46,551 bases of DNA, taken from contig JAFGOC010000146.1 in assembly GCA_016926705.1 (NCBI GenBank), forward strand, positions 1-46,551, read 5' to 3'. The stretch comes from Dehalococcoidales bacterium (GTDB taxonomy: Bacteria; Chloroflexota; Dehalococcoidia; Dehalococcoidales; RBG-16-60-22). The notes under the pieces are model-generated. The model made no database searches. It saw nothing but the letters and a program-made list of their open reading frames with translations, and had not been told where the DNA came from. This document shows positions 1-43,003 of the stretch, piece by piece. Positions within the stretch are counted from its first letter, which is position 1. The number at the start of each line of letters is the position of its first letter. Made by a program: the position numbers and the translations under genes.

Positions 1-2
1 CG

Positions 3-320
3 GATAAAGTGCCTCCGCAGATAGAGGTTGACATCAGTGTATTGGCCGAGTTGGACCAGTCTATTTTTGTTAAAGATATCGTCCTCGACCCGGAAATAGA
101 TGTCCAGGACGACCCCGAGCAACTGGTGGTCAAGGTATCCGAAATCATTGTCAAGATAGAAGAAGAAGAGAAACCGGCTGTCGAGGAAGAGGAAGAGTCT
201 GAAGCTGAAGAGGGTGCTGAAGGGGAGGTCAAGGCCGAAGAAACCGAGGGAAAGCCCGAAGCGGAAGCTGGAGCCGAGAGGAAGATGCCGGAGAAGCAGG
301 CACCGGATAGAAAAGAATAG
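3..320 (+). CDS. rplY: 50S ribosomal protein L25/general stress protein CTC, C-terminal part (5' truncated by window)
   Basis: In-frame from window edge; DKVPPQIEVDISVLAELDQSIFVKDIVLDPEIDV..VVKVSEI matches the L25 CTC C-terminal domain, followed by a long acidic tail. Confidence 0.8.
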   Translation, partial: DKVPPQIEVDISVLAELDQSIFVKDIVLDPEIDVQDDPEQLVVKVSEIIVKIEEEEKPAVEEEEESEAEEGAEGEVKAEETEGKPEAEAGAERKMPEKQAPDRKE

Positions 321-356
321 ACCAGCCTTTTTCCTGATACGGGTTGGCAGTTTGAG

Positions 357-1196
357 ATGATTATCGATTTCCACGCGCATGTTTTACCGCCGCGGATAAA
401 AAAAGACCGCGGCCGGTATGTGGAAAAAGACGCAGCCTTCGGCCAGATTTACTCCGGCGAAAAGGTTAAAATAGCCACCGCGGAAGACCTTATCAGCAAT
501 ATGGACCGGGATGGGGTCGATATTTCCGTCATCGTCAATTATAGCTGGAGCACGCATGAGCTTTGCGTGGAGACCAATGACTATATTCTTGAATCGGTCG
601 CCCGTTACCCCAAGCGCTTAATTGGCCTTTGCGCCGTCAGCTCTTATGCGGATGACGCCTCACTGAAAGAAATAGAGAGATGCGCTAGCGGGGGTGCAAA
701 AGGGGTGGGCGAACTCCGGCCGGATACCCAGAAACTGGATTATACCAGAAAAAATGTCATCAAGCCTTTCACCGACCTTTTACGGAAACACAAGTTAATT
801 ACGTTAACCCACGCCTCGGAACCAGTGGGGCATTTTTACCCTGGAAAAGGGGAGGCGACTCCGGATGTGCTGTACAAGTTTATCGCGAATTTTACCGGCC
901 TGCCGGTGGTCTGCGCCCACTGGGGCGGTGGCCTGCCGTTTTATACCCTGATGCCGGAAGTGCGAGATGCCCTGAAAGATGTTTATTACGATACGGCCGT
1001 TTCGCCGTTTCTTTACCGGCCGGAGATATACCTTCAAGTTAGCCGGCTGGTAGGGGCGGAGAGGATACTTTACGGCAGTGATTTCCCCGTGGTAGCGCAG
1101 GGCAGGATTATCAAAGAAATAAACGAAGCGGGTCTCCCCGATGACGCGAAAGATAAAATCCTAGCTGGAAACGCGCGCCGGCTACTGGGTCTATAA
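357..1196 (+). CDS. Amidohydrolase family protein (TIM-barrel metal-dependent hydrolase)
   Basis: MIIDFHAHVLPP N-terminus, THASEP, CAHWGGG, LYGSDFPV motifs of amidohydrolase_2. Confidence 0.85.
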   Translation: MIIDFHAHVLPPRIKKDRGRYVEKDAAFGQIYSGEKVKIATAEDLISNMDRDGVDISVIVNYSWSTHELCVETNDYILESVARYPKRLIGLCAVSSYADDASLKEIERCASGGAKGVGELRPDTQKLDYTRKNVIKPFTDLLRKHKLITLTHASEPVGHFYPGKGEATPDVLYKFIANFTGLPVVCAHWGGGLPFYTLMPEVRDALKDVYYDTAVSPFLYRPEIYLQVSRLVGAERILYGSDFPVVAQGRIIKEINEAGLPDDAKDKILAGNARRLLGL

Positions 1197-1204
1197 GCGG
1201 GACT

Positions 1205-1780
1205 ATGGAAAAGATACGCTCTTTTATCGCTGTTGAATTACCTGTAGAACTCAAGCAGGCGCTGTCCCGACTACAGGCGAAAATGAAGTCTGCCAGCGCG
1301 CCGGTAAAGTGGGTAGAACCCGGTAATATCCACCTGACGCTCAAGTTCCTGGGCGATATTAATGTTGAAATCACCGGCAGGATAGCGGCGGCTCTGGAAG
1401 ATGCGACCAGGGGCGAGCACCCGTTCGATATCGGGGTAAGCGGGCTCGGGGCATTCCCCGGTTTAAAGAACGCCCGGGTAGTCTGGGTGGGCTTGACCAG
1501 GGAACTGGAAAAACTGGAACAGCTCCAGAAACGTATCGAGGCAGGCCTGACACCGCTAGGGTTTCCGCCGGAAGGCAGGCCTTTTACACCTCACCTTACC
1601 ATCGGCCGCGTGCGTGATTACGCCAGGCCGGACGACAGGCTGGCGCTGGGCGAGATGATAGGCGGTATAAGCCTTGAGAAAGAATATGAAATAGGTGTGA
1701 AGGCGGTTCACCTGATTAAAAGTCAACTTACTCGGGAAGGCCCCATCTACAGTAAAATCAGCACCATCACTTTTAAGTAG
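1205..1780 (+). CDS. thpR: RNA 2',3'-cyclic phosphodiesterase (2H phosphoesterase)
   Basis: Two HxTx motifs: HLTLKFLG and HLTIGR; RSFIAVELP N-terminus. Confidence 0.92.
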   Translation: MEKIRSFIAVELPVELKQALSRLQAKMKSASAPVKWVEPGNIHLTLKFLGDINVEITGRIAAALEDATRGEHPFDIGVSGLGAFPGLKNARVVWVGLTRELEKLEQLQKRIEAGLTPLGFPPEGRPFTPHLTIGRVRDYARPDDRLALGEMIGGISLEKEYEIGVKAVHLIKSQLTREGPIYSKISTITFK

Positions 1781-1952
1781 TCAATTGTTCCTCCTCATAG
1801 ACTAGAAAAACTCCTCCTTCGTGCATACGTCCCCTTATAGCTCTTAATGTTTACATTTTGTTTATGTGCTGATGATTGAAATTAACGCATTGTTTAGCAT
1901 ATGGTGCCTACAATACTGGCATAAGCTTGACTGAATGCTGGGAGGTGAGAGA

Positions 1953-2978
1953 ATGACCATTCCAAAAGAAAGTATATTACTCGTAGATGATGAAGAAGCG
2001 ATACGCGGCATTCTATCCAAGGGTCTGGGAGCGCGCGGCTTTGTTTGTGATGAAGCCGAAAACGGCGACCAAGCACTAAAGAAACTCAAACAACGGGCTT
2101 CCGACCTGGTTATCATGGACATCAATATGCCGGGAAGAGCGGGCAGCGAGGTACTGCCGGAGATAACCCAGCGCTACCCGGAAACGGCTGTGATTATGGC
2201 CAGCGGCGTGACCGATACCAAGGTCATCGCCAAGTGTATCAGGGATGGAGCTCAAGACTATATCAGTAAGCCATTCAGGTTTGAGCAGGTACTAGCTTGC
2301 GTTAACAGTACTCTCGACAAACGGCGTATAGCGCTTGAGATACAGCGTTATTTCCAGGATTTAGGTAAGAAAATAGGCAGGAATAAGAACGAGTCCAGGC
2401 AGCTGTTCTTCGGGGCTATCCAGACCCTGGTAAACACTCTGGAATCAAAAGACAATTATACCACCGGTCATTCAAATTCCGTCGTTGAAACATCCATGGC
2501 CCTGGGCGAGAAGATGAAATTAAGTACCGAAGAGATGGAAGACCTGTGCTGGGCGGCCATGCTTCATGACGTAGGAAAAATAGTCGTCGACCCTAATATT
2601 CTTAATAAGCCCAGCGAATTAACGACCACCGAATACCGGCATATCATGACACACGCTATCGTCGGGCCGAACCTCGTCAGACCCTTTGTCAACGATAAAA
2701 TAGTGAATATGATTTCACATCACCACGACCATTACGACGGCGGTGGTCTCGACCAGACAATCGTCGGCAAGGACATTCCTCTGGGTGCTAGGATTATCGC
2801 GCTGGCTGATGCTTATCATGCCATGATTTCCGACCGGCCTTACCGCAGGGCATTATCCAAGATGGAGGCGATGGAGGAAATCCAGTGGTGCAGCGGTTCT
2901 CAATTCGACCCGATTATTGCCAATGTTATGATCAGCTTTATCAAGGAGCAAATATTCCAGCCGAGGAAGACAAAATAG
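1953..2978 (+). CDS. Response regulator: CheY-like receiver fused to HD/HD-GYP-like domain
   Basis: ILLVDDEEAIRGIL receiver, VIMDINMPG phospho-Asp; GHSNSV, MLHDVGK, HHHDHYDGGGLD. Start chosen at ATG 1953 after GGGAGGTGAG. Confidence 0.88.
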   Translation: MTIPKESILLVDDEEAIRGILSKGLGARGFVCDEAENGDQALKKLKQRASDLVIMDINMPGRAGSEVLPEITQRYPETAVIMASGVTDTKVIAKCIRDGAQDYISKPFRFEQVLACVNSTLDKRRIALEIQRYFQDLGKKIGRNKNESRQLFFGAIQTLVNTLESKDNYTTGHSNSVVETSMALGEKMKLSTEEMEDLCWAAMLHDVGKIVVDPNILNKPSELTTTEYRHIMTHAIVGPNLVRPFVNDKIVNMISHHHDHYDGGGLDQTIVGKDIPLGARIIALADAYHAMISDRPYRRALSKMEAMEEIQWCSGSQFDPIIANVMISFIKEQIFQPRKTK

Positions 2979-3005
2979 CCTGATATCAGGTAAGGTTGAT
3001 AAGTT

Positions 3006-3041
3006 AAGAGGGGTGGGTATCTTCAACCCACTCCTCTTTTG
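3006..3041 (+). terminator. Rho-independent terminator after REC-HD gene
   Basis: AAGAGGGGTGGGT-loop-ACCCACTCCTCTT followed by TTGTTTT. Confidence 0.8.
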
Positions 3042-3051
3042 TTTTGAAGTG

Positions 3052-4203
3052 CTATTTTAAAAAGGACGTTGCGCCGGTATGAGCGGTATCGTAGCCGCCT
3101 GCTTTATCAACCACCGCTTTAAATTCATCGGTGGTAACGGTGCGGAGGAGAGGAGCCAGCAGCTCGCTGTGGTAATTGGCTATCGGTATAACAAGGTCGT
3201 ATCGCTCACGAAATAAAGGCAGGAAATCTATATTGCAACTGCGCGCCGCGGCCTCTATTCCTAAAGCTACATCCGCTTCACCGTGGGCAATGCTTAAGCC
3301 CACGGCAAGGTGGGTGTCCATTTCACTCTGGTAGCCTTTAATATCTTTCGGACTGATGCCCAGGCGGCGAAGCTGTATATCCAGGAGCACCCTCGTCCCG
3401 GCGCCTTTCTGGCGGTTAACGAAAGTGATATCAGGGCGTTTTAAATCAGCGATTCCCTTGATACGCTTGGGATTGCCGGGAGCGAACATCAGTCCCTGAA
3501 TACGGTAAGCCAGGTGTACGATGGCGACCTCACGTCCCGGTAGCACTCTTTTTACATAAGGATAATTATACTCGCCCGTCTCTTCATCAAGCAGGTGTAT
3601 ACCAGCAAGATGCGCCCGGTCTTCCTGGATGGCAATGAGTCCCCCGAGGCTGCCGGCATGGGTTATCTGTATCTTGAGTTTCTTATTTTCCCTCCGGGTC
3701 AGGTCTACCAGAATATTAAGCGCCATGTCATGACTGCCGACAATGTGGATGGTATCATTATCTTTAGCGGAATCGCTGGTAATTTCTGGCGCACTCGAGG
3801 TTGCCTGTCTTTCTTCGCGCCAGCGAGCCAGCTGGAGATAAAAATCGGCTTCAATATCCTCCGGACTGTAGCCCATGCTAAGCGCTTTGAGGATATCATT
3901 GCCGACCATTTCCGAGAGACGCCGGCGTCTTTCCAGGAGTATGTTGGGGTCATCCGTTCTGGCGGTAACGACGGTGCCGCCCCGCTTGCGGGCGACGACG
4001 ACCTTCTCCTGCTCCAGTAAGAGATATGCCCGCAAAATCGTGTTCTGGTTGATGTTTAGGAATTCGGCAAGCTGCCTGACAGGAGGTAGGTGGTCGCCGG
4101 GCTTCAGCTTTTCCACAGCGATAAGGTTTCTAACCTGGTCCGCTATCTGCAGGTGGAGCGGGTCTTTAGAGTGCTGGTCAATCTGAAGATCGGCAATATC
4201 CAT
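3052..4203 (-). CDS. GntR-type HTH transcriptional regulator with periplasmic-binding-protein-like sensor domain
   Basis: LHLQIADQVRNLIAVEKLKPGDHLPPVRQLAEFLNINQNTILRAYLLLEQE wHTH, then PBP-like domain (GSHDMALNIL..FVNRQKGAGTRVLLD). Confidence 0.85.
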   Translation of the reverse strand: MDIADLQIDQHSKDPLHLQIADQVRNLIAVEKLKPGDHLPPVRQLAEFLNINQNTILRAYLLLEQEKVVVARKRGGTVVTARTDDPNILLERRRRLSEMVGNDILKALSMGYSPEDIEADFYLQLARWREERQATSSAPEITSDSAKDNDTIHIVGSHDMALNILVDLTRRENKKLKIQITHAGSLGGLIAIQEDRAHLAGIHLLDEETGEYNYPYVKRVLPGREVAIVHLAYRIQGLMFAPGNPKRIKGIADLKRPDITFVNRQKGAGTRVLLDIQLRRLGISPKDIKGYQSEMDTHLAVGLSIAHGEADVALGIEAAARSCNIDFLPLFRERYDLVIPIANYHSELLAPLLRTVTTDEFKAVVDKAGGYDTAHTGATSFLK

Positions 4204-4677
4204 ATGTAATAAGCCAAATGCATATATTATACGTGCTGTTAATATAGCCTAATGCCATCCCATTGTCAACGCTTCTCGATTACTAAACGGCTGTTATCAA
4301 CATAATTTCTACCGCGGTTCTTTCATAAAACAGGTGTAGTCATTCACTCATATCTACAGCAAGTTTTCATCGAATGCTGACGGTATTGATTTCTATAAAA
4401 TGTTGCCGGTTCAAAAAGACATTTATTAAGGTACATGTTTGCCTGTAATTTCAGGTACAGGGAAACCCTTATACCAACTTGCGGAAAGTTTCAGGGCATG
4501 GTTGGTAGTTACTTGGTTTAATGCAACGTATTTATCAGCTAATATTTTAATAAATCCCATAATCAATATAAAAAAATAATCATGAATCACATGTGCAGTT
4601 CATGTTTATGAGTTGCTTCACTATTTTTTTATTTAAAAATAGGGGGATGCCCTCATGGATAAAAAGGAGGCCAACAA

Positions 4678-7191
4678 GTGTCCGAGAAACTAAAGCAGAT
4701 TTTTGATCTCAAACAACTACTAAAACTCAATCTACAGACGAAGATACTGGCGCTGGGAATAGTGATTATAGCAGCTTTTATCGGCGTAATACTGGGTTAT
4801 ATGCTGCCCGGCGTACAGGATTCCATAATGACTGAAAGAGAAAACAAGATCCAGGAAGAAACGCAAATCGCCTGGGGCATTATAGATAGCTGCTATCAAC
4901 AGCAGAGTTTGCGTGTATTATCTGAAAAGGATGCCAAGGCTGAAGCAATCAGGTTGCTACGTGGCCTAAGATATGGGCCGGAGAATACCGATTATTTCTG
5001 GATTAACGATTACCGACCCTATATGATTATGGACCCATATAAAATAGCCCTTCAGGGGTCTGACCTTAGCGCTGTAACGGACCCCAGCGGCAGGACAATA
5101 TTTGTGGAAATGGTGGATATCTGTGCGCAGCAGGGCGAAGGCCTTATCAGCTACACGTGGCAATATTTGGATGATAATCAAAGGCAAGAAGAAAAAATCA
5201 GCTATGTCAAAGCATTTGAGCCCTGGGAGTGGATAGTTGGTACCGGCGTATATACGGTGGATATCCAGCAGGTAATCGATGCCCAGAGGAATCAATACCT
5301 CTTGGTAGCGGGCATTATGGCGTTGATATGTTTTGCCCTGATATACTTCCTCACCAGACCGATTTCAAGGAATATCAAGAGACTGGCCAGCGTGGCTGAT
5401 AAGCTGGCAATCGGCGACACAAAGCAGAAGGTAAAAGTAAAATCAAGTGATGAAACGGGTGAGTTGGCGGAGTCACTGACAAATGTCATCAACTATCTCT
5501 GGGAGACGTCACAGGTTGCGGAGAAGATAGCAGAAGGGGATTTGACGGTTCAAGTTACTCCGAAATCAGAGAACGATACACTGGCAAAGAGTTTTAACAA
5601 AATGGTGACGAACCTTAAATTAATGATTGAAGACGTCCGCCAGAAAATCAGTTATCTTAATCAGATTCCCAACACGATTTTAGTAGTAGATACTGACTAT
5701 AATATTCTCTTTGTGAATCGGGTTGCTGCCCGTGCCGCAGGTAAAAAGGCGGAAGAGTGCGTCGGGAAGAAGTGTTACGATTTGTTCAGCACGGCTGACT
5801 GTAAAACAGAGGAATGCGGGTGCGCTAAAGCATTCCAAACCAATAAGGTTATAACAAAGGAAACTACGGTGAAACTATCCTCCGGCGAGATTCCTGTTCG
5901 TTACACCTGTGCGCCCATCAAGGATGCCGATGGCAAGGTAATCGGCGCTACCGAGTACGTGCTTGATATCAGCAAGGAAAAGGCGGCTGTGGCGAGAATG
6001 ACCGAAATATCGGAGAGTCTGTCGAAAGCGAGTGAAGAGCTTAAGGCAGCTTCAGAGCAGTCGGGCTCGGCGACGGAGCAGATAGCCAGTGTCAGCCAGC
6101 AGGTGGCAAGGGGGGCGGAGGAGCAGACCAGGGGTATCAATGAGGTCAACCGTGCTATCGACGAGCTTGAAAAATCGATAGGACAGGTCGATAAAGGCAG
6201 CAAGGACCAGGCTAAAGCCGTGGAGCAAACCGCCGGCATCGTGCAGCAGGTCTCAAGCGCTGCGGAGCAGACAGCAGCCAGCGCCCAGGAAGCTGCTAAC
6301 GTTGCCGGTCAAGCCGCTGAAGTCGCCAAGCAGGGCACCGAAACGGTGGAAAAGACGATTGCGGGCATCAGACAAATCAATACCAGCATGCAGGACGTTG
6401 CTAATAAGGTAGCGGAATTAGGCAAGCATTCGGAAGAAATCGGCGGTATGATTGCTGTAATCGATGATATTGCCGCCCAGACAAATCTGCTGGCTCTGAA
6501 TGCTGCCATCGAGGCGGCGCGAGCCGGAGACCAGGGCCGCGGTTTTGCGGTGGTGGCTGACGAGGTCAAGAAGCTGGCGGAGAGGACGGCCAAGGAGACC
6601 AAAGAAATTGCCACACTTGTCAGCAGCGTGCAGAAGGGCGTCAATGAATCGATAAAGGCTTCCATGGAAGGAGCCAAACAGGCTGAAGAGGGTTCGGTCC
6701 TGGCCAATGAAGCCGGGACGGCACTCGACCAGATTCTGGATTCTATCAACGGCATGACTTCCCAGATAGAACAGATATCTGCGGCAGCCGAGGAAATGAG
6801 CGCATCTTCCAGCGAAATGGTTAAGGTGGTTGAGGAAGTAAGTATGATTGCTGAAGAGAACCTCAATGCTACGAAGCAGATGAGTGAAAGTAAGACCAAG
6901 GTAAGCGAGTCGGCTAATACCGTAGCCGCCACGACCGAGGAAAACAGCGCGGCCACGGAGCAGATGTCAGCTTCAGCACAGGAGATGAGTGCTCAAGTAC
7001 AGCAGGTGGTTACGGCAGCCCAGTCGCTGTCAAAGATGGCCAGCGACCTGAAAGATGCCATCAACCTGTTTGAACTACGAAACAGGGATACCATTGGAAA
7101 AAGCAAGGACAAGGACGCTGCCGAAAGCGAAAGTGGTAGCGGAAACGGAAAAAAGAGCAAGCCCAATATCAAGAATACCGTTGAAATGTAA
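4678..7191 (+). CDS. Methyl-accepting chemotaxis protein (Cache sensor, HAMP, Cys-rich PAS, MCP signalling domain)
   Basis: GTG start after AAAGGAGG; N-terminal TM, Cache-like segment, second TM, HAMP, PAS with CX..CX..CxC, and signalling tip [43 protein letters not shown]. Confidence 0.96.
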
Positions 7192-7200
7192 ACATGATAC

Positions 7201-7235
7201 AGCGAAGTTGGGGCGGACTACGCCCCAACTTCGCT
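7201..7235. terminator. 15-bp perfect inverted repeat between MCP gene and cheW (terminator-like or processing hairpin)
   Basis: AGCGAAGTTGGGGCG-GACTA-CGCCCCAACTTCGCT; no real T-tract. Confidence 0.6.
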
Positions 7236-7291
7236 TAACTGCCGGATAGTTACGGCACACGGAATCTTACCCCGGCACAGGAGGAACAGCG

Positions 7292-7798
7292 ATGGCAAAA
7301 GATACGTTAGCAAACGAAAAGCAAATGGTGTTGTTTGAGCTAGGAACGGAGACTTACGGTCTGGATATAGCATCCGTTCATGAAATAATACGTATGCAAC
7401 CGATAACCAAGGTCCCCAAGGCGCCTTTCTATGTGGAGGGGGTAATTAATTTAAGGGGCCGGGTCATTCCGGTAATCGATATCGGGAAGAGATTCGGCTT
7501 TGAGAAAACAGAAGAAGCTAAAAACAACCGTATCGTTGTCATTAATATAAAGGATACTACACTCGGAATCATCGTGGACGCTGTGACCGAGGTTATCCGT
7601 ATACCTGCAGAGTCTATCGACCCGGTTTCAGATATAGTCACTTCCGGGCAATCAGATTACCTGCAGGGAATTGCCAAACTGCCGGAAAAGATGATTATCA
7701 TTCTGGCACTGGATAAATTGCTGATGAAAGACGCTGAACTGGTCGACATGACCGCTCAAGATGAAGACGTAAAACAGGAACCGGCGAGTATAAAGTAA
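7292..7798 (+). CDS. cheW: Chemotaxis coupling protein CheW
   Basis: VLFELGTETYGLDIASVHEIIRMQPITKVPKAPFYVEGVINLRGRVIPVIDI. Confidence 0.96.
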   Translation: MAKDTLANEKQMVLFELGTETYGLDIASVHEIIRMQPITKVPKAPFYVEGVINLRGRVIPVIDIGKRFGFEKTEEAKNNRIVVINIKDTTLGIIVDAVTEVIRIPAESIDPVSDIVTSGQSDYLQGIAKLPEKMIIILALDKLLMKDAELVDMTAQDEDVKQEPASIK

Positions 7799-7982
7799 AG
7801 AAGAGGCTTCATCGTGCAAGTTGAAAAACCGGCCTCCTCCCGCGCCTTTAAAAAGAAAAAGCAGATAGTAACGTTCAGGTATTGTGAAACTTTACTACGG
7901 AAGTGGAATTAACCGCCGGGAGAGGTATGTATAAGTTGTAGTTGTATTAATCAAAGTAACCAGATAGTGAAAGGAGAACAGC

Positions 7983-10043
7983 GTGGATTTGGCCGCCGGC
8001 ATTACCCCGGAAGACCTGGACTTATTTATACAAGAAGCCGACGAGCAGCTGCAACTACTTGACGAAGACATCGTAAGGCTTGAGAAAGAATCCGGGAACC
8101 CGGACCTGATGCAGGAAATATTCCGGGCAGCCCACACACTCAAAGGGTCTTCGGCAATGGTGGGGCATCAGCGTTTGTCTGACCTGGCCCATGCCATGGA
8201 GAGTGTCCTCGATCAGGTGCGTAAAGGCATGCTGGCAGTTAGCCCGTCGATTATAGATGCTCTGTTGCATGGTCTCGATGTCATGAGGCTACTTCGTAAG
8301 GAGCTGGATTCTCCGGATTCCAAACCCGCGGATATTACCAACGCCGTTGCCGAGCTTTCTGCCCTTGTAACAACTAATGAACAACCTGTAAAGCAAGTCG
8401 CCGAGCACTCCGGCGTGCTAGTTCCGGATGCCGAAGCCCAGACAAGATTAGAGAAGGCCTGCCAGGAAGGCAAGCAGGCATATTTTATTAAAGTGTCATT
8501 TAATAAGGAGTCCCATTGGACCGCGGTACGGAGTTTTCAGGTAATCAACAGTCTCTCGGCGATTGGCGAAATAATAGTTTCTCTGCCGACCGCTCAGGAG
8601 ATAGAAGAGGGGAAGATCAATCATTTATTCCAGATTTTAGTTGCCAGCAAGAACAGTGCAGAAGATATCAGAGAGTTGCTGACCGGAATTTCTGAAATAG
8701 AAAATATTGAAATTAATGTTCATGAGAAGGAGATATCCGGGGAAGCCGCAAAGGCAACCGGGTCTGATTCTACTGTTACCGGTAAAGAAGATACAAAATT
8801 AAGTCACACGGTAAGGGTAGACGTAAGCCGTCTGGATACTCTGATGGAACAGGTAGGCGAACTGGTTATCAATCGTAATCAAATCAGTCAGCTCGGCAGG
8901 ATGCTGGCGGAGAAATATCATGAAGATGAAATAATCGTTGCTTTCGGCGACAGCCTGTCGCAAATAGCTAAGATAGTCAGCACCCTCCAGCAGGACGTGA
9001 TGTCAATACGCCTCCTGCCTGTGGAAATCGTGTTTAGTACTCTGCCGCGGATGGTCAGGGACATCGCGCGTAAAGAAAATAAAAAAGTTGAATTTATTAT
9101 CGAAGGTCAGGAGACCGAGGTCGACCGCAGCGTCATCGAGCAACTGCGGGACCCACTTATCCATATGCTGCGCAACTCGATAGACCACGGCATAGAGGCA
9201 CCGGATAAGCGTAGATCAGCCGGCAAGCCGGAGGCAGGCACGATACGTCTTTCGGCGATGCATGAACAGGACAATATCGTGATTACGGTGAAAGACGACG
9301 GCAAGGGGGTTGACCCCAAGTTGATAAGAAAATCGGCGATTGATAAAAAGATTGATATGCCGGAGAATATCTCAAAATTGACGGATCATGAAGCCGTAAA
9401 TCTAATTTTTAATTCCGGTCTCTCCACGGCAAGCGAGGTTACCGATGTTTCGGGCAGGGGAGTAGGGCTGGATGTAGTGAAAACAAATATCGAAAGCCTG
9501 GGAGGTTCGGTCAGTGTTGAATCGGTGCCCGGGCAGGGAACTACATTCACCCTTACGCTACCCCTGACGCTGGCAATTATACCCGCACTGCTGGTAAGCA
9601 CCGTAGGCACTATCTGCGCAATACCTCTATCGAGCATAGTTGAAGCCGGGAAACTGGATGTAAAGGAAATTCAGACCGTAAGAGGCAAGGAAGTGACGCT
9701 TTTCAGAGGCGATGTACTGCCCCTGCTGCGGCTCGATGAGGTATTCGGTTGGAGTGACAAGAATAACAGGTCAGGCGAGGCCCTTCATATGGTCGTGGTC
9801 AAGTTCTCAGGTTCCAGGGTAGGTCTGGTGGTCGAGGAATTACTGGAGCAACAGGAACTGGTGGTGAAATCGCTGGACCATTTCATCGGGGAGAGCAACG
9901 GCATAACCGGCGCAAGTATTCTGGGCGACGGCAGGGTTGTCCTGATTCTTGATGTTGCCTCGCTAATAAGAGGCGCTATTACAGAACGTAACAATAACAA
10001 GATTAAAATAAAGTCATCGGTATCCAGGTTAAGCATTAAATAA
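7983..10043 (+). CDS. cheA: Chemotaxis histidine kinase CheA
   Basis: Hpt motif AAHTLKGSSAMVGH, H-kinase dimer, RNSIDHGIE N box, DDGKGVD, GRGVGLDVV, CheW-like C-terminus. Confidence 0.97.
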   Translation: MDLAAGITPEDLDLFIQEADEQLQLLDEDIVRLEKESGNPDLMQEIFRAAHTLKGSSAMVGHQRLSDLAHAMESVLDQVRKGMLAVSPSIIDALLHGLDVMRLLRKELDSPDSKPADITNAVAELSALVTTNEQPVKQVAEHSGVLVPDAEAQTRLEKACQEGKQAYFIKVSFNKESHWTAVRSFQVINSLSAIGEIIVSLPTAQEIEEGKINHLFQILVASKNSAEDIRELLTGISEIENIEINVHEKEISGEAAKATGSDSTVTGKEDTKLSHTVRVDVSRLDTLMEQVGELVINRNQISQLGRMLAEKYHEDEIIVAFGDSLSQIAKIVSTLQQDVMSIRLLPVEIVFSTLPRMVRDIARKENKKVEFIIEGQETEVDRSVIEQLRDPLIHMLRNSIDHGIEAPDKRRSAGKPEAGTIRLSAMHEQDNIVITVKDDGKGVDPKLIRKSAIDKKIDMPENISKLTDHEAVNLIFNSGLSTASEVTDVSGRGVGLDVVKTNIESLGGSVSVESVPGQGTTFTLTLPLTLAIIPALLVSTVGTICAIPLSSIVEAGKLDVKEIQTVRGKEVTLFRGDVLPLLRLDEVFGWSDKNNRSGEALHMVVVKFSGSRVGLVVEELLEQQELVVKSLDHFIGESNGITGASILGDGRVVLILDVASLIRGAITERNNNKIKIKSSVSRLSIK

Positions 10044-10058
10044 CAAGGAGAATTAGAA

Positions 10059-10655
10059 ATGGAGCTGGAAAAGGGGAATCGGGTAATAGATTTTACCGAT
10101 ATCAATATGGCGGGTCTCTTCGGGGAGGGCGTGAACAACGCGATTGAAGGCCTTTCCCAGATGGCCGGACGGGAGGTTAAGGTCGTCAGCATGGATATCA
10201 AGAAAGTCCCGGTCAAAGATATTCCGGACCTGTTCGGCGGGGCCGAAGCTTTGATAATTGCCATATACGTGGAGATATTCGGCAAGACCAACGGGCATAT
10301 GGTGGTGGTATATAAGCCGGAAGTGGCTTTCGGGCTGGTGGATTTATTGCTGGACCAGGCGGCCGGTTCAACCACGGAACTGAATGATATGGAGAGTTCT
10401 ACCCTGGGCGAAGTTGGTAATATCATGGGCTCATTTTTCTTGAATTACCTTTCCGATACCACCGGCCAGCGACTCAAGCCGTCACCGCCTGCTGTGATGA
10501 TGGATATGGCCGGCGCTGTCCTGGACTCGACGCTGGCTAATATACTTGCATACAGCGATGAAACATATATTGTGGATACGGTATTCGGTACCAAAGACCG
10601 GCAGGTCTCGGGCACTTTCATGATTATACCCAACCCTAGTCTGGAGGCCAGTTAA
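10059..10655 (+). CDS. cheC: CheY-P phosphatase CheC
   Basis: STLGEVGN-x22-P active site, position in operon next to cheD. Confidence 0.85.
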   Translation: MELEKGNRVIDFTDINMAGLFGEGVNNAIEGLSQMAGREVKVVSMDIKKVPVKDIPDLFGGAEALIIAIYVEIFGKTNGHMVVVYKPEVAFGLVDLLLDQAAGSTTELNDMESSTLGEVGNIMGSFFLNYLSDTTGQRLKPSPPAVMMDMAGAVLDSTLANILAYSDETYIVDTVFGTKDRQVSGTFMIIPNPSLEAS

Positions 10656-11173
10656 TGGCAATAGTATTTAGTGAAACAGCCGCACCGGAGCGGGAACTGC
10701 ATTTGGTGGGTATGGGTGAGATTGTAGTGACGGATTCTCCCAATGCTGAATTATCCTGTATCGGGCTGGGTTCCTGTGTCGCAGTGTGCGCTTATGATGT
10801 AAGAGAGAAAATCGGCGGTATGGCCCATATTGTACTGCCGCAGTATAACGGCTTGCCTGGCAGCAATCGTGCCAAGTTTGCCGATACAGCTGTGCCAATG
10901 CTGATAGATGAAATGTTGAAGAAAGGTGGTGTGAAAAGTCGGTTGATTATAAAAATAGCCGGCGGGGCCCAGATGACAATAGCTCCGGGGCTAAGAGACA
11001 CCTTTAAAACCGGCGAGAGGAATCTGGAACAAATAATGTCGGTGCTGCGGAGAGAAAATATTACTCCTGCGGCGGCCGATACGGGTGGTAGCGTCGGGAG
11101 GACGGTGAGAATGTATGTTAAGACTGGTCGGGTTACGGTCAAAACTGCCTACGGCATGCCCCAGGAGCTTTAG
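10655..11173 (+). CDS. cheD: Chemoreceptor glutamine deamidase CheD
   Basis: GLGSCVAVCAYD, GGMAHIVLP, KIAGGAQM. Confidence 0.95.
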   Translation: MAIVFSETAAPERELHLVGMGEIVVTDSPNAELSCIGLGSCVAVCAYDVREKIGGMAHIVLPQYNGLPGSNRAKFADTAVPMLIDEMLKKGGVKSRLIIKIAGGAQMTIAPGLRDTFKTGERNLEQIMSVLRRENITPAAADTGGSVGRTVRMYVKTGRVTVKTAYGMPQEL

Positions 11174-11225
11174 GTATGGATGATAAATTACAAAACAATA
11201 TAACTACAGGGAAAAAGGAGATAAC

Positions 11226-11582
11226 ATGGCTACGGTAATGGTTGTGGACGATGCAATGTTCATGCGTAAAAAATGCGCGCAGGTTTTATCCCAAAACGGT
11301 TATGCCGTCGTCGAAGCTGCGAGCGGGGCGGAGGCATTAACAGCCTACCAGCAGGAGAAACCGGACTGCGTGTTGCTGGACATCACCATGCCGGATATGG
11401 ACGGTATAGAGGCGTTGAAAGAACTGCTTAAAGTTGACCCCAATGCCAAAGTTTCGATGTGCAGTGCTATGGGACAACAGGGTATTGTTATCGAAGCTTT
11501 AAAACTGGGGGCCAAGGATTTCGTTGTCAAGCCGTTCGATGTTGCTAGGGTGATTGGTTCTGTAAAGAAACTGATAGGCTAA
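11226..11582 (+). CDS. cheY: Chemotaxis response regulator CheY
   Basis: Stand-alone receiver: VVDDAMFMRKK, LLDITMPDMDGIEAL, VVKPF. Confidence 0.93.
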   Translation: MATVMVVDDAMFMRKKCAQVLSQNGYAVVEAASGAEALTAYQQEKPDCVLLDITMPDMDGIEALKELLKVDPNAKVSMCSAMGQQGIVIEALKLGAKDFVVKPFDVARVIGSVKKLIG

Positions 11583-11609
11583 AATCTTGAGATAGTAAGG
11601 TTTAGTGTT

Positions 11610-12671
11610 TTGGGAGAAAAGCAGGTGCAGAAAAAACTACGAGTGCTTGTTGTCGATGATTCCGGGTATGTAATTACGGCTGTTTCCAACAAGCTTAACG
11701 CCGACCCGGAGATTGAGGTTATCGGCTCTGCCCGTAACGGTATCGAGGCCGTAGAAAAGGTAAAGAGCCTTAAGCCGGACGTGGTAACCTTGGATGTTAT
11801 CATGCCGGAGATGGACGGCATCGCCGCTTTAAAAATAATAATGGAAGAATGCCCGACCCCGGTGGTTATGCTTAGCGCCTTAACCAGCGAAAACGCAGAA
11901 ACCACTATGAAAGCTCTGGAGCTGGGCGCGGTTGATTTCTTTCTCAAACCTTCGGCTATAAATCCGGTAGCCGATGATACCCTGGCGGCAAAAATAAAGA
12001 CGGCTGCCAAGTGTAATCTAATTAAGAACGGAAGGGTTAAGGCGGATACAGGTTCTAGGAAAAAGGTAATAAGTCAGGATAAATATTCAGCCTTTGAAAA
12101 ATTGGTAGTTATCGGTGCTTCTACCGGTGGTCCCAGGTCATTAATGCAGATAATTCCCGCACTGCCGGCGGATATTCCGGCGGCGGTTTTAATAGTCCAG
12201 CATCTTCCCCCGGTTTTCACCCGGTCGCTGGCGGAGAGGCTGGACCAGGTATCTCAAATAAATGTTGTGGAGGCGGAAGAGGGGAGTATCGCGAGCAGAG
12301 GCAGGATTTTAGTGGCTCCCGGCGATTTTCATATGCTGATAGAAAGCGGAGGCAAAATTAAACTCGACCAGGGGCCGCACGTTCTGGGAGTACGGCCTGC
12401 GGCGGATATAACTATGAAATCAGCGGCGGCCAAATTCGGCGATGCTGTAGTCGGTGTCGTCCTTACCGGCATGGGTATCGATGGGACACAGGGGGCCTCA
12501 TACATTAAAGCCGCGGGCGGCCAGGTCCTGGCACAGGATGAAGCTACCAGCGCAGTGTACGGTATGCCGATGAGCGTGGTAAAAGCCGGCTACGCCGATA
12601 AGGTATTGCCTTTACATAAAATTGCCGATGGTATTGTTAAAGTTTGCGCATCACGGGAGAGAGTTGCATGA
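11610..12671 (+). CDS. cheB: Chemotaxis protein-glutamate methylesterase CheB
   Basis: Receiver plus methylesterase domain: GASTGGP, VQHLPP, GMGIDGTQG; TTG or downstream GTG start. Confidence 0.95.
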   Translation: MGEKQVQKKLRVLVVDDSGYVITAVSNKLNADPEIEVIGSARNGIEAVEKVKSLKPDVVTLDVIMPEMDGIAALKIIMEECPTPVVMLSALTSENAETTMKALELGAVDFFLKPSAINPVADDTLAAKIKTAAKCNLIKNGRVKADTGSRKKVISQDKYSAFEKLVVIGASTGGPRSLMQIIPALPADIPAAVLIVQHLPPVFTRSLAERLDQVSQINVVEAEEGSIASRGRILVAPGDFHMLIESGGKIKLDQGPHVLGVRPAADITMKSAAAKFGDAVVGVVLTGMGIDGTQGASYIKAAGGQVLAQDEATSAVYGMPMSVVKAGYADKVLPLHKIADGIVKVCASRERVA

Positions 12672-13501
12672 ATGCGGAAGAATTCACCTATGTAAAAAAG
12701 AAGATACGTGAATTGACGCAATTCGACCTTGATAATTACGGCCATAACCAGATGATACGGCGTCTGGACGGCTACATTATGCGATTTAAAGTACAAAATG
12801 TTGCACAATATTTTAATTTAGTTAAACATGATAAAAACGAGCTGGAGAAGCTGAAGAAGTTCCTCACCATAAACGTGTCCGAATTTTTCCGGGACGCTGC
12901 TCAATTCCGGTTGTTACAAGACGAGATATTGCCGCCGTTATTGCAAAACAATCTGGGATTGAATATCTGGAGCGCCGGTTGTTCTAACGGGGCTGAAGCT
13001 TATTCGGTAGCTATGTTACTTGACAGGCAATCTCCTTATAGAAAGCATCGGATACTCGCAACGGATATCGATCAGGCTATTGTAAACCATGCGGCTGCCG
13101 GCGGACCTTATGGTGCGGCAGAGGTAAGAAATGTGCCGAAGCAGTTGCTGGAAAAATATTTCACTAAAGACGGCGGCAATTTCAGGGTAATTGAAAGGAT
13201 TCGAAATAAGGTCAACTTTGGGCTGCATGACCTGACGCGGGACCCGTTTGAAGATAATTTTGACCTGATAATATGCCGCAACGTAGTAATTTACTTCTCC
13301 ACTGAAACCAAGAAAATATTAAGGAAAAAGTTCCTGGATTCATTAAAAGTCCACGGAATACTATTTATCGGTGCTACCGAGACGATGTTGGACGCAAAAG
13401 ATAACGGATTTCAGCGTTTATCGGCATGCTTTTACAGGAAAAAGTCGGGTATGCCCGAAAAGTCTCAAGAGCCAGTGGTCTCTGGCAGAGGTATAAAATG
13501 A
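12668..13501 (+). CDS. cheR: Chemotaxis protein methyltransferase CheR
   Basis: ITINVSEFFRDAAQF-like motif, IWSAGCSNGAEAYSVAMLL, DLIICRNVVIYF. Start at ATG 12668. Confidence 0.95.
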   Translation: MNAEEFTYVKKKIRELTQFDLDNYGHNQMIRRLDGYIMRFKVQNVAQYFNLVKHDKNELEKLKKFLTINVSEFFRDAAQFRLLQDEILPPLLQNNLGLNIWSAGCSNGAEAYSVAMLLDRQSPYRKHRILATDIDQAIVNHAAAGGPYGAAEVRNVPKQLLEKYFTKDGGNFRVIERIRNKVNFGLHDLTRDPFEDNFDLIICRNVVIYFSTETKKILRKKFLDSLKVHGILFIGATETMLDAKDNGFQRLSACFYRKKSGMPEKSQEPVVSGRGIK

Positions 13502-14571
13502 GGCGTATTACGATAAAATATGCCAAACCGGGTATGGTCCTGGAGCAGCCTGTTTATGACAGCTTCGGGAATACGCTGGTGGAAAAAGGTAAGGAATTGG
13601 ATGCAGGCCTCGTCGTCAGCATGAAAGAAAAGGGAGTGACGGAGATATTTATCCGTGATTGGCGGGCTATGGACGTGTTAGCGGCCCCTCTTTTTACGCC
13701 GCAAACCGAGGGCGTACTGGCCAAGGCTTTCAGGCAGTTACTGCTGGATAGCGAAGGGAAACAGAGACTCTCTGTTATCAATCTCAACCCGCTGCATATA
13801 GCCATGATAGCGATGATCAGAGAGATGAACCTGAATATGATAGGTGATATCAATGTATCGTGCAAGATATCACCGAGAGACTACCTGTATCTACAGCCCG
13901 TAAAGACCGCCGGACTTTCCCTGGCGCTCGGCCACGGATTGAGACTATCCCCCGATGAATTGGCAGGCCTTGGGATGGCGGCTATTCTTAAAGATATCGG
14001 TTTGCCCAAGGAAACGATTGAAAATGTGGACTGGATAGCTGAAGGCAATACGCCGCGTATGGCTGAACATCCCGGCATCGGGTTTAAAATGCTTAATATG
14101 CACAAAATGACTTCAGGAGACACGGCTAAAGCGGTGCTGCAGCATCACGAATTCTGGAATGGCACGGGCTATCCTGAGGGTTTAAAAGGCAAGGATATTA
14201 ATCTATTTGCGCGTATTATCGCCGTAGCAGACTCATTTGTCGATTTACTGACGGACCGGCCGGGGAGGAGTAAAGTTATGCCGCACCAGGCCATTGAATA
14301 TATTATGGCGGGAGGCAATGACCAGTTCGATCCGGAAATTGTCGAGCTGCTGGTAAGGCGCGTTCCTTCGTATCCAGCTGGGATATCGGTCAAATTAAGC
14401 ACCGGCGATACCGGCATTGTTGCAAACCCTAAACTGGGATTTATAGCCAGGCCTATTATCCGTGTTTTTCACCGTCCTGCCCAGGGTACATTAAGAAATC
14501 CTTTTGATATCGACCTTGCCAAACCTGATTTTCAGCGTTTACTGGTGACTGAAGTACTGGAGTATGATTAA
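13498..14571 (+). CDS. Degenerate HD-GYP domain protein
   Basis: ATGA overlap with cheR; HHEFWNGTGYPEGLKGKDI present, HD replaced by KD (AAILKDIGLPKE). Confidence 0.85.
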   Translation: MRRITIKYAKPGMVLEQPVYDSFGNTLVEKGKELDAGLVVSMKEKGVTEIFIRDWRAMDVLAAPLFTPQTEGVLAKAFRQLLLDSEGKQRLSVINLNPLHIAMIAMIREMNLNMIGDINVSCKISPRDYLYLQPVKTAGLSLALGHGLRLSPDELAGLGMAAILKDIGLPKETIENVDWIAEGNTPRMAEHPGIGFKMLNMHKMTSGDTAKAVLQHHEFWNGTGYPEGLKGKDINLFARIIAVADSFVDLLTDRPGRSKVMPHQAIEYIMAGGNDQFDPEIVELLVRRVPSYPAGISVKLSTGDTGIVANPKLGFIARPIIRVFHRPAQGTLRNPFDIDLAKPDFQRLLVTEVLEYD

Positions 14572-15266
14572 TGGCACGTGAAGACAGGATATTATCGCAA
14601 TCAGAAATAGATTCACTGCTAAGGAAGATAGCGCCTAAGTCGGATGAACCGGCGGCTAAAGAGGAGCCGTCACCGGTTGAGCCTGTCGAGCTAGAGGTGA
14701 AACCTGCCAAGGCAGCAGTCGAACCCGAAGCAGCATCTTCAGGGACTCCCCAGGATCTGAAAACGGTATCGTTTAAGTCGATTGAAATAACAGAAGACGA
14801 AGAGCCAACAAGGGCTGGCGACCTGGAGACAGACTCGATAAAGCTGTCCGAATATAAGCCCAAGACCGCAGAACCGCCGGCATCGGTGCAGCCTATGGAG
14901 ACGGCGAGACAAAAATCCGCTCTTGGTGAAGCTGACGACCTGAAAACGAAGGTTGCCGAATTGACTGCCGAGGTGAATAAGCTATCAACTGCCCTGCAGA
15001 CAGTAGCACAACTGGAAGAAAAGATCAGACAACTGGAAACGTTGATGAAGAATGCACCGGAATCGGCTGGGACTCTTAAAGCCAGGATAGATAAAATAGC
15101 CGCTGAACTCGAAGCAGGCGAAGGGAAAAAGTCCGATTACGGTTTCCTCGAGGCGTTCAGATGCAGCCACTGCCGTTCCAAAGGTAATGTGGCGATTTAT
15201 ATCAAATGCACCAGCTGTGGCAAGGAAAACTGGATGGGCTGGTGGCCTGAAGAAGAAGAGAAATAA
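14571..15266 (+). CDS. Protein with FliM-like N-terminal CheY-binding peptide, coiled coil and C-terminal zinc ribbon
   Basis: DRILSQSEIDSLLRKI N-terminus; AELTAEVNKLSTALQTVAQLEEKIRQLETL coiled coil; CSHC..CTSCG ribbon. Confidence 0.75.
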   Translation: MAREDRILSQSEIDSLLRKIAPKSDEPAAKEEPSPVEPVELEVKPAKAAVEPEAASSGTPQDLKTVSFKSIEITEDEEPTRAGDLETDSIKLSEYKPKTAEPPASVQPMETARQKSALGEADDLKTKVAELTAEVNKLSTALQTVAQLEEKIRQLETLMKNAPESAGTLKARIDKIAAELEAGEGKKSDYGFLEAFRCSHCRSKGNVAIYIKCTSCGKENWMGWWPEEEEK

Positions 15267-15341: not shown

Positions 15342-16241
15342 CTATTTTTCCGCCTGCTCCAACTCATCCTGATTATCCGGGGTAAGGTCTATCTGATAAA
15401 AATCGCTATCCATACCGGGCAATATCATCATGAAATCCGGGGTATAATCGATAAAAACATCAGCCTGCCCGATAATAAACTCAAGCACATGACCGCCGGT
15501 ATCTTTATCTTTAGTCAGGAAATGCAGGTGGTAGCCTGGCATATTGAGACCGATGATAAATGGAGGCGAGCGGAACCCGACCAGAGTGCCTTCAACTTGC
15601 TCGAATTCAAAGACGGGCTGGTTTTTGGTGACTTCAACCAGCGGGGGGTAGGGCTTTTGCTGGGCGGGTACGCTCCGCGTTTTCATGTAACTGAACGTAC
15701 CCTCGATTTTGATGGCGCAGAAGGTATTTATGCTCGGTAGAATACCATCGAGGTATTCCTGGAGTGAAGCATAATTCAGCCCCTGCGCCAATTCTCCGGA
15801 ATAATCGATATCAAAGAACGTTACCATGGCAAAAGGGGTCTCCATATCATCGGTAACAGGGTAGGCGATGCCGTCGGCTTTTACCTGATAAAATTCTCTG
15901 TCGAAGGCCAGCATCTCGCCGTCGAGGGCTTTGAAAGTGCCGATACCGAAATCGCCGTACTCTTTAAGAACACCATATGTCATAACGCCGTCGTAAACAC
16001 CGTTGAGAAGAGCGTCAATCGTGGATATTTGCGTCATTGTTTCTCTTGCGGCAATGGGATTATCGGCATATTCTGCAGGACCGGCTTGAGACGTTGTTTC
16101 CGCCTGTCCGCAAGCTGTAATTAGAGTAATCACGGTAATTAAGGCAAGTAAAATCAAGTGGGATAAAAACCGCGGAATGATACCATTCTTGTCGTTAAGA
16201 CGTTTTTTCCCTTTCATAATTCTTAAAACCTCGATAATCAT
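15342..16241 (-). CDS. Acetolactate decarboxylase, predicted lipoprotein
   Basis: STIDALLNGVYDGVMTYGVLKEYGDFGIGTF, NTFCAIKIEGTF, GYHLHFLTKDKDTGGHVLEF zinc site; lipobox LITAC. Confidence 0.9.
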   Translation of the reverse strand: MIIEVLRIMKGKKRLNDKNGIIPRFLSHLILLALITVITLITACGQAETTSQAGPAEYADNPIAARETMTQISTIDALLNGVYDGVMTYGVLKEYGDFGIGTFKALDGEMLAFDREFYQVKADGIAYPVTDDMETPFAMVTFFDIDYSGELAQGLNYASLQEYLDGILPSINTFCAIKIEGTFSYMKTRSVPAQQKPYPPLVEVTKNQPVFEFEQVEGTLVGFRSPPFIIGLNMPGYHLHFLTKDKDTGGHVLEFIIGQADVFIDYTPDFMMILPGMDSDFYQIDLTPDNQDELEQAEK

Positions 16242-40093: not shown

Positions 40094-40898
40094 TTATCTA
40101 AACGGGTAACCATATATTTCTGCTAATTGATAGAATGTCCTACTACATTGTGCGAAATTAAATATCGTCATGAGACCTGATGCAAATAATCCTGCGGGAT
40201 AATTATACCATCCAATAAGCGCAGCATCAGCATATAAAAGGGCGTCCGAGAAGATCATCTGTCCAGAATTGTATTGTTGTGCAGCATTAACGAGAGAATA
40301 TACGGTGCCGATAACAGGAATTAGCTCTATAGGATTAGGTAAGGAAATGCTAGGATAGCATCGGAGGATGTGGTCTTCCACCTGCATATTAATTTCAATC
40401 CCTACGAACCAATCCTCGGCTTTTGAAAGATCATTATACATATTATTATTGAGAACTATTTCATAGTTATCTCCGACATGATTAGTTGTGGCTTTTTGTT
40501 GATATCCGAGGTCATCAAATGCTATAGTTACAACTCTTTCACTTTGTTCTAATGTCTGTGCACGAAGTGGATCCCACGAACTTTGTTCGCGAAATGCTTC
40601 GTACGCCTGATATTCCGGTGATTCTACAACGTCAACTACAGAGTCTGCAATATCCGGCGGAAGGAAAGCAATATACATTGCCGCGCCTCTAGTAACCCTT
40701 ACATCCACTCCCCCAATTTCAACTATATTTCCGCTTGGGTCTATATACTTCAGAGGGTTATTCATGGTATAAGAGTATCTATTGAGACTTTGCGGATTGA
40801 TAAAGCTTTGCACTATAGTATCCGCGCTGATAAACCTCCCTATGGTAACATCATAGTACCGCGCGCCGTAGTAGTAAAGGCCGGTGGCGTCAAGGCGC
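40094..40898 (-). CDS. 5'-truncated Rhs core with variable C-terminal domain (orphan toxin-tip cassette)
   Basis: RLDATGLYYYGARYYDVTIGRFISADTIVQSFINPQSLNRYSYTMNNPLKYIDPSG core, then non-conserved tail; reading frame open upstream of the listed ORF start. Confidence 0.8.
40607..40898. repeat. 292-bp near-identical direct repeat encoding Rhs core (other copy 42581-42872)
   Basis: Side-by-side reading: same length, high identity, both ending at GTCAAGGCGC. Confidence 0.85.
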
Positions 40899-40924
40899 CC
40901 TCCTACGCTAAAGCTTTGGTGGGC
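40897..40924. repeat. Imperfect palindromic repeat at the Rhs homology breakpoint
   Basis: GCCCTCCTACGCTAAAGCTTTGGTGGGC. Confidence 0.5.
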
Positions 40925-40968
40925 AAGCTGGTTAAGGGTGAGCTGTTGGTAATAAGGAAAGGATTTAA

Positions 40969-40987
40969 CCCGTCTCCACCAGAAACA
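40969..40987. repeat. 19-bp direct repeat, second copy of tmRNA-like 3' end
   Basis: CCCGTCTCCACCAGAAACA. Confidence 0.75.
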
Positions 40988-41045
40988 AAATTAAGCCACT
41001 GAGGATAAAGAACGGGGGTTTATATTGGGTTGTACTGTAAACAGC

Positions 41046-42005
41046 CTATTCCCAGGTCTTAAGGTATGTATATGTTTTATTTACACAACCAGCGAATTCA
41101 GCTTGTACCAACATTATAAAGGGATGGTTGTCAGGATTATCAACGTAGGTTTTTCCATTGATGTCTTTAAGTTCCCGATTTTGTATTTGCCTGGTTTCAT
41201 GGCTACGAATTCCCGCAATATCATGGGACTCATATCCAGTAGATAAATTATTATCAATATAGTTTAATATTACCTTTACCTCACATAGCATAACATCTTC
41301 ATTATTGGTTAAATAAAAAACACCATCTCCGTATTCAATAGTAATGTTTAAATTGGTAGTAGAATCATTATTATAGTTTGTATCTAATAATTTGAACGTA
41401 TTAATGATGTGATTAAAAGACTCTTGGCATTCTAGTGGTTCCGGGTAAGTAGAATATGTCATCATATATATTTGCCACATCAGGCCAGCATAATCAAAGA
41501 CGACTAATCTATGTATATATTGCTTTCTGAAATCACTAGGATTTGGTGTTGATGCAAAATAGTTGGCTTCTATTCCTGATACCATGACTTTTTTCATAGT
41601 ACTGTTATCTACACTCGACCCAGAAAACCATCGATTTATATAATAATTCTTTTCGTTATCATAGTTAGAAGCTGATAACTCATTGACCTTTACATACAGG
41701 GAAAGATAAGGCGAATCTTGCTTATAACACCAAAAACCTAATTCAGATTGTCCGGCAATAACAACATCCGGTTCAATATCATAGACGTGTATACCATATG
41801 CTATTGGATATTCAAAAGAAAACAAGGGTTGATTGATACGCTTAAGTCTGTAATCATCAGCTTTCATCTCATATGTATAATATTTACTTTGTGGTATTTC
41901 TGTTTGGTTCGTGTTCTCGTTTTTACAACCTGGTAAAAATAAAATTAAAATAGACAAAATAAAAGACAATGATAAAGTTACTGAAATTTTATTTTTTACC
42001 ATCAT
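41046..42005 (-). CDS. Predicted lipoprotein of unknown function, candidate immunity/cargo of Rhs cassette
   Basis: Signal peptide with FLPGC lipobox; 29 bp downstream of Rhs-metalloprotease ORF. Confidence 0.7.
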   Translation of the reverse strand: MMVKNKISVTLSLSFILSILILFLPGCKNENTNQTEIPQSKYYTYEMKADDYRLKRINQPLFSFEYPIAYGIHVYDIEPDVVIAGQSELGFWCYKQDSPYLSLYVKVNELSASNYDNEKNYYINRWFSGSSVDNSTMKKVMVSGIEANYFASTPNPSDFRKQYIHRLVVFDYAGLMWQIYMMTYSTYPEPLECQESFNHIINTFKLLDTNYNNDSTTNLNITIEYGDGVFYLTNNEDVMLCEVKVILNYIDNNLSTGYESHDIAGIRSHETRQIQNRELKDINGKTYVDNPDNHPFIMLVQAEFAGCVNKTYTYLKTWE

Positions 42006-42034
42006 TGAGTGAGTTCCTTTAAAAAATGAAATAT

Positions 42035-43003
42035 CTACATTCCAAAGGTAGTTAACAATAAAACCATATAGGGTAAGCCATATTCCAAGTTGTTCCCACC
42101 TTCTGTAGGATATAGTGGTATACCTGGTTGTGTTATTCTATGGTCTGATGATGATGGATTGTACGAGGGAGATAATATTTTAGTATAAGGAATATGTAAT
42201 TTATTACAGATTGATCTTGCGTAAATATCAGCTAGATTCTCTTCAAAAACTGAATTTTGTACTCTAAAATCTCTGTTATTATTCAACCCAAAAGCATGCA
42301 CCATCTCATGTGCCATATTCGCCGTCCATCTTTGACTGCTTTGGTCGATTAAATTGTTATTATTAATTACTATATTCAATCCAATAAAACGATTGCCATC
42401 TTCGCTTATTTCAATTATACGTTCAGTTTGCGCTCCTAATATCTCGGTTCGAATTGTTCCATCGGGGTCAACCGTTGTTACTAGGGCACCCAAATCACGG
42501 CTGGTAATTGTAATTACTAAATCGGTATTTTCTAACACATCTGTAACAGTATTATCTACTGATCTTATGTTCTCATATATCTGATATTCTTCTGATTCTA
42601 CAACATCAACTACAGAGTCTGCAATATCCGGCGGGAGGAAAGCGATATACATTGCCGCGCCTCTGGTAAACCTAACATCCAATCCCCCAATTTCAACTAT
42701 ATTTCCGCTTGGGTCTATATACCTAAGAGGATTATTGAAAGTATATGAGTATCTATTGAGACTTTGCGGATTAATAAAGCTCTGGATGACCGTATCCGCG
42801 CTGATGAACCTCCCTATGGTAACATCATAGTACCGCGCGCCGTAGTAGTAAAGGCCGGTGGCGTCAAGGCGCTGGCCGGTGAACTTTTTATCGGTTGGCA
42901 CATTACCCATTATTATCTCGCCAAAGGGCAGGTACTTCATCGTCTCGTCGATTTGTGCGCCGGAGGCATCAGTCATCATGGAAGTGCCGGTCAGATGGTC
43001 CAA
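42035..43003 (-). CDS. Rhs core fragment with C-terminal HExxH metallopeptidase-like domain
   Basis: GQRLDATGLYYYGARYYDVTIGRFISADT core; C-term NMAHEMVHAFGLNN..FEENLADIYA; TTG start directly after in-frame stop. Confidence 0.8.
   Translation of the reverse strand: MDHLTGTSMMTDASGAQIDETMKYLPFGEIIMGNVPTDKKFTGQRLDATGLYYYGARYYDVTIGRFISADTVIQSFINPQSLNRYSYTFNNPLRYIDPSGNIVEIGGLDVRFTRGAAMYIAFLPPDIADSVVDVVESEEYQIYENIRSVDNTVTDVLENTDLVITITSRDLGALVTTVDPDGTIRTEILGAQTERIIEISEDGNRFIGLNIVINNNNLIDQSSQRWTANMAHEMVHAFGLNNNRDFRVQNSVFEENLADIYARSICNKLHIPYTKILSPSYNPSSSDHRITQPGIPLYPTEGGNNLEYGLPYMVLLLTTFGM
42581..42872. repeat. 292-bp direct repeat, Rhs core copy 2
   Basis: See 40607-40898. Confidence 0.85.

Follow-up and report, generated by a model that had tools for sequence, protein, structure and literature searches.

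The Chemotaxis Operon and Its Last Gene

The window, by which we mean the whole 46,551-nucleotide stretch of DNA that was analyzed, belongs to a 1.73-Mb Dehalococcoidales MAG that is 78.6% complete. On its forward strand Pfam identifies a chemotaxis (che) operon comprising, in order, genes for a methyl-accepting chemotaxis protein (MCP) with sCache, HAMP, and PAS domains (4678-7191), CheW (7292-7798), CheA (7983-10043; also placed in a CheA tree), a CheC-type phosphatase (10059-10655), CheD (10655-11173), CheY (11226-11582), CheB (11610-12671), CheR (12644-13501), and a degenerate HD-GYP protein (13498-14571). As the original prediction stated, the cheW-A-C-D-Y-B-R-HDGYP series is closed by one further gene (14571-15266, forward strand). 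It encodes a protein of 231 amino acids that we regard as a candidate adaptor between CheY-P and the archaellum (hereafter, the adaptor), and its ATG overlaps the stop codon of the HD-GYP gene directly upstream.

The closest solved relatives of the CheY are Thermotoga maritima CheY entries, and the CheY proteins of adaptor operons conserve the alpha4-beta5-alpha5 sequence found in that species. In the HD-GYP protein of the window the HD dyad reads KD, and HHE and GYP are kept. Every adaptor operon checked shows the same loss of the HD histidine with retention of the HHE and GYP motifs, confirming the degenerate neighbor that had been proposed; this protein may be a pseudo-enzyme that binds c-di-GMP and is linked to the adaptor. 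Convergent with the adaptor gene lies a lipoprotein gene (15342-16241, reverse strand), whose product presumably resembles acetolactate decarboxylase and which is kept beside the adaptor in two other loci (L002 and L003). Farther along the window, two repeated RHS/YD-repeat-like fragments (RLDATGLYYYGARYYDVTIGRFISAD) occur on the reverse strand (40097-43003).

Architecture of the Adaptor

The adaptor consists of four parts, all encoded on the forward strand. A FliM/FliY-type CheY-docking peptide, recognized by sequence comparison and AlphaFold2, occupies residues 7-17 (ILSQSEIDSLL; 14589-14621). It is followed by a variable, acidic, proline-rich linker that is predicted to be disordered (residues 25-114; 14643-14912; AlphaFold2 pLDDT <50), by a predicted coiled coil (residues 116-185; 14916-15125) formed of helices 116-161 and 163-185, and by a C-terminal Cys4 ribbon (residues 195-226; 15153-15248) that ends in WMGWWP and whose four cysteines are invariant in the alignment. 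AlphaFold2 and the alignment thus uphold the earlier description of an acidic linker, a coiled coil, and a CxxC...CxxC ribbon. Models of four orthologs predict the N-terminal helix (residues 10-20) fairly confidently and the coiled coil confidently. Overall confidence is low (mean pLDDT 57), as expected for a protein of this type. In the ribbon the two CxxC knuckles align, and strands 208-212 and 219-224 are predicted with low confidence; a sequence search of the PDB with the ribbon returned no match.

No part of the adaptor scores above cut-off in Pfam or NCBIfam. Pfam finds in it no FliM, FliN, CheC, or CheF domain, and the FliM middle domain and FliMN_C (SpoA) are absent at E values up to 1, so that the lack of a FliM/FliN domain, chosen beforehand as a test of the prediction, stands. 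The CheF family gives no match in Pfam or NCBIfam, and the AlphaFold2 model has no beta-rich N-terminal domain of the kind that the PH-like domains of CheF would require. Nor does the adaptor match ArlC/D/E models, among which PF04659 also misses the ArlDE-like protein of the class itself.

A FliM-Type Peptide and a Conserved Ribbon

Residues 8-17 of the adaptor read LSQSEIDSLL. Within the same class, the FliM proteins of flagellated members begin with ADNAVLSQREIDALLN, ADGKGLSQEEIDALLA, or ADSRALTQAEIDALLN, and their peptides are VLSQREIDALL, GLSQEEIDALL, and ALTQAEIDALL; the adaptor of genome G120 begins with SDNAVLSQADIDALLN. By comparison of sequences, the adaptor peptide is therefore nearly identical to the FliM peptides of its own class, which bears out the assignment of a FliM-type CheY-binding peptide to this gene, and the adaptor shares with FliM an N-terminal LSQxEIDALL-type docking peptide. 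The LSQxEID pattern recurs in orthologs from within the genus and family. A profile search across the class recovered relatives with only 21-31% overall identity; these open with LSQ or LTQ..ID and close with CxxC...CxxC, and most carry a WxGW motif near the C-terminal end. Because no distant ortholog has lost the peptide, a point on which the original prediction had been made to depend, it is not a chance resemblance. Among 16 sequences of the family, Q10 and D14 are invariant and L8 and I13 are at least 90% conserved. Mean pairwise identity among orthologs is 60% in the peptide and 50% in the ribbon, compared with 24% in the linker and 20% in the coil; in these alignments, conservation within the family is limited to the two ends of the protein. 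The strict motif falls within the first 70 residues in 20 of the 1155 distinct ORFs of the loci examined, all of them adaptor-family members or FliM, and beyond the first 70 residues it occurs once in 290,795 residues of the same ORFs.

These patterns bear on the idea that the adaptor is a functionless, truncated FliM retained through descent. The likeness of its peptide to that of FliM and the presence of flagellated relatives in the class would suit such an origin, but a protein that lacks both the middle and the C-terminal domain of FliM, holds a fixed position in its operon, and conserves peptide and ribbon at 20-30% overall identity contradicts it, and we reject this explanation as barely credible.

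Peptide and ribbon are also found apart from one another. Genome G220 encodes, directly before its full adaptor, a second peptide-bearing protein of 131 amino acids without a ribbon (L111:9103-9495). Paralogs in family f73 (L114:11307-12779, L123:9814-10827, and L120:2927-3628) start with a membrane helix where the adaptor has its peptide, and a coiled coil and the adaptor's type of ribbon follow; in genome G173 such a paralog lies two genes after the adaptor, and it could be a membrane-bound partner. The same type of ribbon is present on a ParB-like protein and on short proteins whose N-terminal portion differs and may be a helix-turn-helix (L017, L018, L024, L020 set). The ribbon is thus a wider module in the class and, since it occurs on unrelated proteins, need not be specific to the archaellum.

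Motors in the Genome and across the Class

Flagellar genes were originally noted as absent from the window, and no FliM/FliN (PF01052) was found in the whole genome (MAG 78.6% complete). A single locus on another contig (C134) encodes archaellins, ArlF/G-type proteins, ArlJ, an ArlDE-like protein, ArlH, and ArlI. The ArlI scores above its curated cut-off; the ArlDE-like protein matches no model and is a putative assignment from its sequence. PilT and a PilB-like ATPase are also encoded, so that of the three kinds of motor genes that were to be sought, those for an archaellum and for type IV pili are present, and the flagellar FliM/FliN was not found. The arl locus and the che operon are on different contigs, and the adaptor gene belongs to the latter.

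Co-occurrence was surveyed in 295 genomes of the class, many of them incomplete drafts. PF04659 (Arch_fla_DE) was discarded as an archaellum marker: it has no match in the class although an archaellum locus is present, and ArlI (NF058587) was therefore used instead. ArlI was found in 51 genomes, CheA in 40, and FliM/N in 26. A full adaptor, with peptide and ribbon, is encoded by all 12 genomes that have both ArlI and CheA, which come from eight families; it was found in none of the 20 genomes with FliM/N and CheA, and no full-length adaptor was found in the 39 with ArlI and no detected CheA (Fisher p 4e-9 and 6e-12, respectively, for 12/12 against 0/20 and 0/39, both ignoring relatedness). One of the latter, G257 (68% complete), contains a che fragment that encodes a ribbon. 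The adaptor is thus present where chemotaxis occurs together with a non-flagellar motor, with family f55 as the exception, and the proposal that it passes CheY-P to a non-flagellar output is supported.

Three such outputs had been suggested: pili, an archaellum-like motor, and the degenerate HD-GYP protein. The archaellum emerges as the likeliest. That the adaptor instead passes CheY-P to type IV pili, acting on twitching or pilus retraction, would agree with the PilT of the window's genome and with f55, which has the adaptor and PilT and no ArlI. Five of the 12 archaellated genomes with the adaptor, however, yielded no PilT (G120, G220, G221, G242, and G314), among them the single-contig assembly of G220, and pili are therefore rejected as the general output. 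The adjacency of che and arl clusters in three genomes, described below, also argues against pili, and we consider this explanation unlikely.

An alternative is that the peptide does no more than sequester CheY-P, serving either as a phosphate sink or to scaffold CheC or the degenerate HD-GYP protein, which would make the adaptor a regulator of its cluster and no motor adaptor. Its place beside the degenerate HD-GYP gene, in an operon with cheC, is what such a regulator might show, as is the persistence of the peptide without the ribbon in two f55 genomes; yet capture leaves unexplained both the conserved ribbon of the archaellated lineages and the absence of the adaptor from 20 of 20 genomes with CheA and FliM/N, which also need CheY-P turnover. 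On these grounds we judge it improbable.

Synteny, Descent, and Family f55

Wherever the end of the che operon is assembled, G120 included, the adaptor gene follows cheR and the HD-GYP gene. Three genomes carry their che and arl clusters side by side. The two operons are convergent in G142; in G041 and G174 a single strand holds the che genes, the adaptor gene, a group of three signalling genes, and the arl operon. In the CheA tree the adaptor operons are separated from the flagellated clade (support 87/83, with one row undetermined) and two remote CheA rows also fall apart from them. A single origin, followed by retention through descent, is probable for the adaptor, and for this reason the survey counts are not independent events; the association of adaptor and archaellum largely follows one CheA lineage, and independent events are few.

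Genome G161, which carries the adaptor system, also has a second, divergent che cluster (L138, on contig C57, about 1-14400) encoding CheB, CheA, CheC, and CheD. Its CheA lies on a very long branch, and beside the cluster are archaeal-type pilus genes (Pilin_N PF07790, an ArlI-like protein at 283 bits, and T2SSF).

In family f55, genomes G243 and G211 encode a full adaptor; the version in G200 and G178 has the peptide and lacks the ribbon. No ArlI was found in the f55 genomes with CheA, which are up to 95% complete, and PilT exceeds its cut-off in five of the six f55 genomes that bear CheA or the adaptor. Since the CheA tree joins f55 to archaellated G142 within the adaptor set (98/100), the natural reading is that the archaellum was lost in this family and the ribbon subsequently in one genus.

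A Candidate Link between Chemotaxis and the Archaellum

Our preferred interpretation, to which we assign a probability of roughly 0.65, is that the adaptor recruits CheY-P to the archaellum by means of a flagellar docking peptide set on a new scaffold. Like the N-termini of FliM and FliY, its N-terminal helix would dock CheY-P on the alpha4-beta5-alpha5 face; CheY-P would thereby be concentrated at the archaellum motor, whose rotation would be switched or biased, and the adaptor would take the place of archaeal CheF. The steps of this scheme differ in strength. A strong case can be made that the peptide binds CheY-P; it is reasonable to suppose that the adaptor targets the archaellum and docks on it; that the ribbon might be the motor-docking end is a guess backed by its conservation; and the effect on rotation is likewise tentative. 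In a broader scenario, for which we see the odds as evenly balanced, a lineage that had its archaellum from archaea rewired bacterial chemotaxis to it through a peptide-bearing coiled-coil/ribbon protein, a non-homologous replacement for CheF that may form a two-part, c-di-GMP-reading switch with the degenerate HD-GYP protein.

A functional archaellum in bacteria was first demonstrated in 2025; CheF is reported there to be absent from Chloroflexota, and the authors suggested that another component may have evolved (PMC12488501). The adaptor is a strong and direct candidate for this missing link between chemotaxis and the archaellum in archaellated bacteria, and its family offers a concrete and widely conserved candidate for the component suggested there. 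If this is true, an old signalling pathway was wired to a motor that had come from a different domain of life, and the wiring was achieved when a docking peptide roughly a dozen residues long was reused on a new protein.

Comparison with Known Systems

In flagella, CheY-P docks first on the EIDALL peptide of FliM or FliY and then acts on the switch (PMC9126983); a complex of T. maritima CheY with a FliM peptide is cited there as published (reference 25 of PMC9126983). In the adaptor, as in FliM and FliY, the peptide is N-terminal, lies on a (here predicted) helix, and is followed by a flexible linker, and the CheY of its operon has the alpha4-beta5-alpha5 sequence of the T. maritima protein. 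Unlike FliM, the adaptor has no middle domain and no FliMN_C, bearing instead a coiled coil and a Cys4 ribbon, and FliM/N is absent from the genomes that carry it. We found no mention of EIDALL outside FliM/FliY in the literature searched, which held few subscription papers and no preprints.

In archaea, the partner of CheY-P is CheF, itself seated on ArlCDE; CheF carries two PH-like domains at its N-terminus and contacts CheY-P near the phosphorylation site via a dimeric C-terminal tail (PMC9126983). CheF and the adaptor would have in common the role of linking CheY-P to the archaellum motor, whereas CheF binds CheY-P without an EIDALL peptide, and we found no sequence relation between the two. 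The ArlCDE switch complex of Euryarchaeota is the cytoplasmic part of the archaellum that receives the chemotaxis signal, as we propose for the adaptor; in the window's genome, however, the ArlDE-like protein is encoded separately, in the arl locus, and the adaptor in the che operon. By the Pfam and NCBIfam searches, the PDB search with the ribbon, and the literature covered, the adaptor appears to stand outside known families. It would work like a CheY-P adaptor, as CheF does, while belonging, to judge from its sequence, to neither the CheF nor the FliM family.
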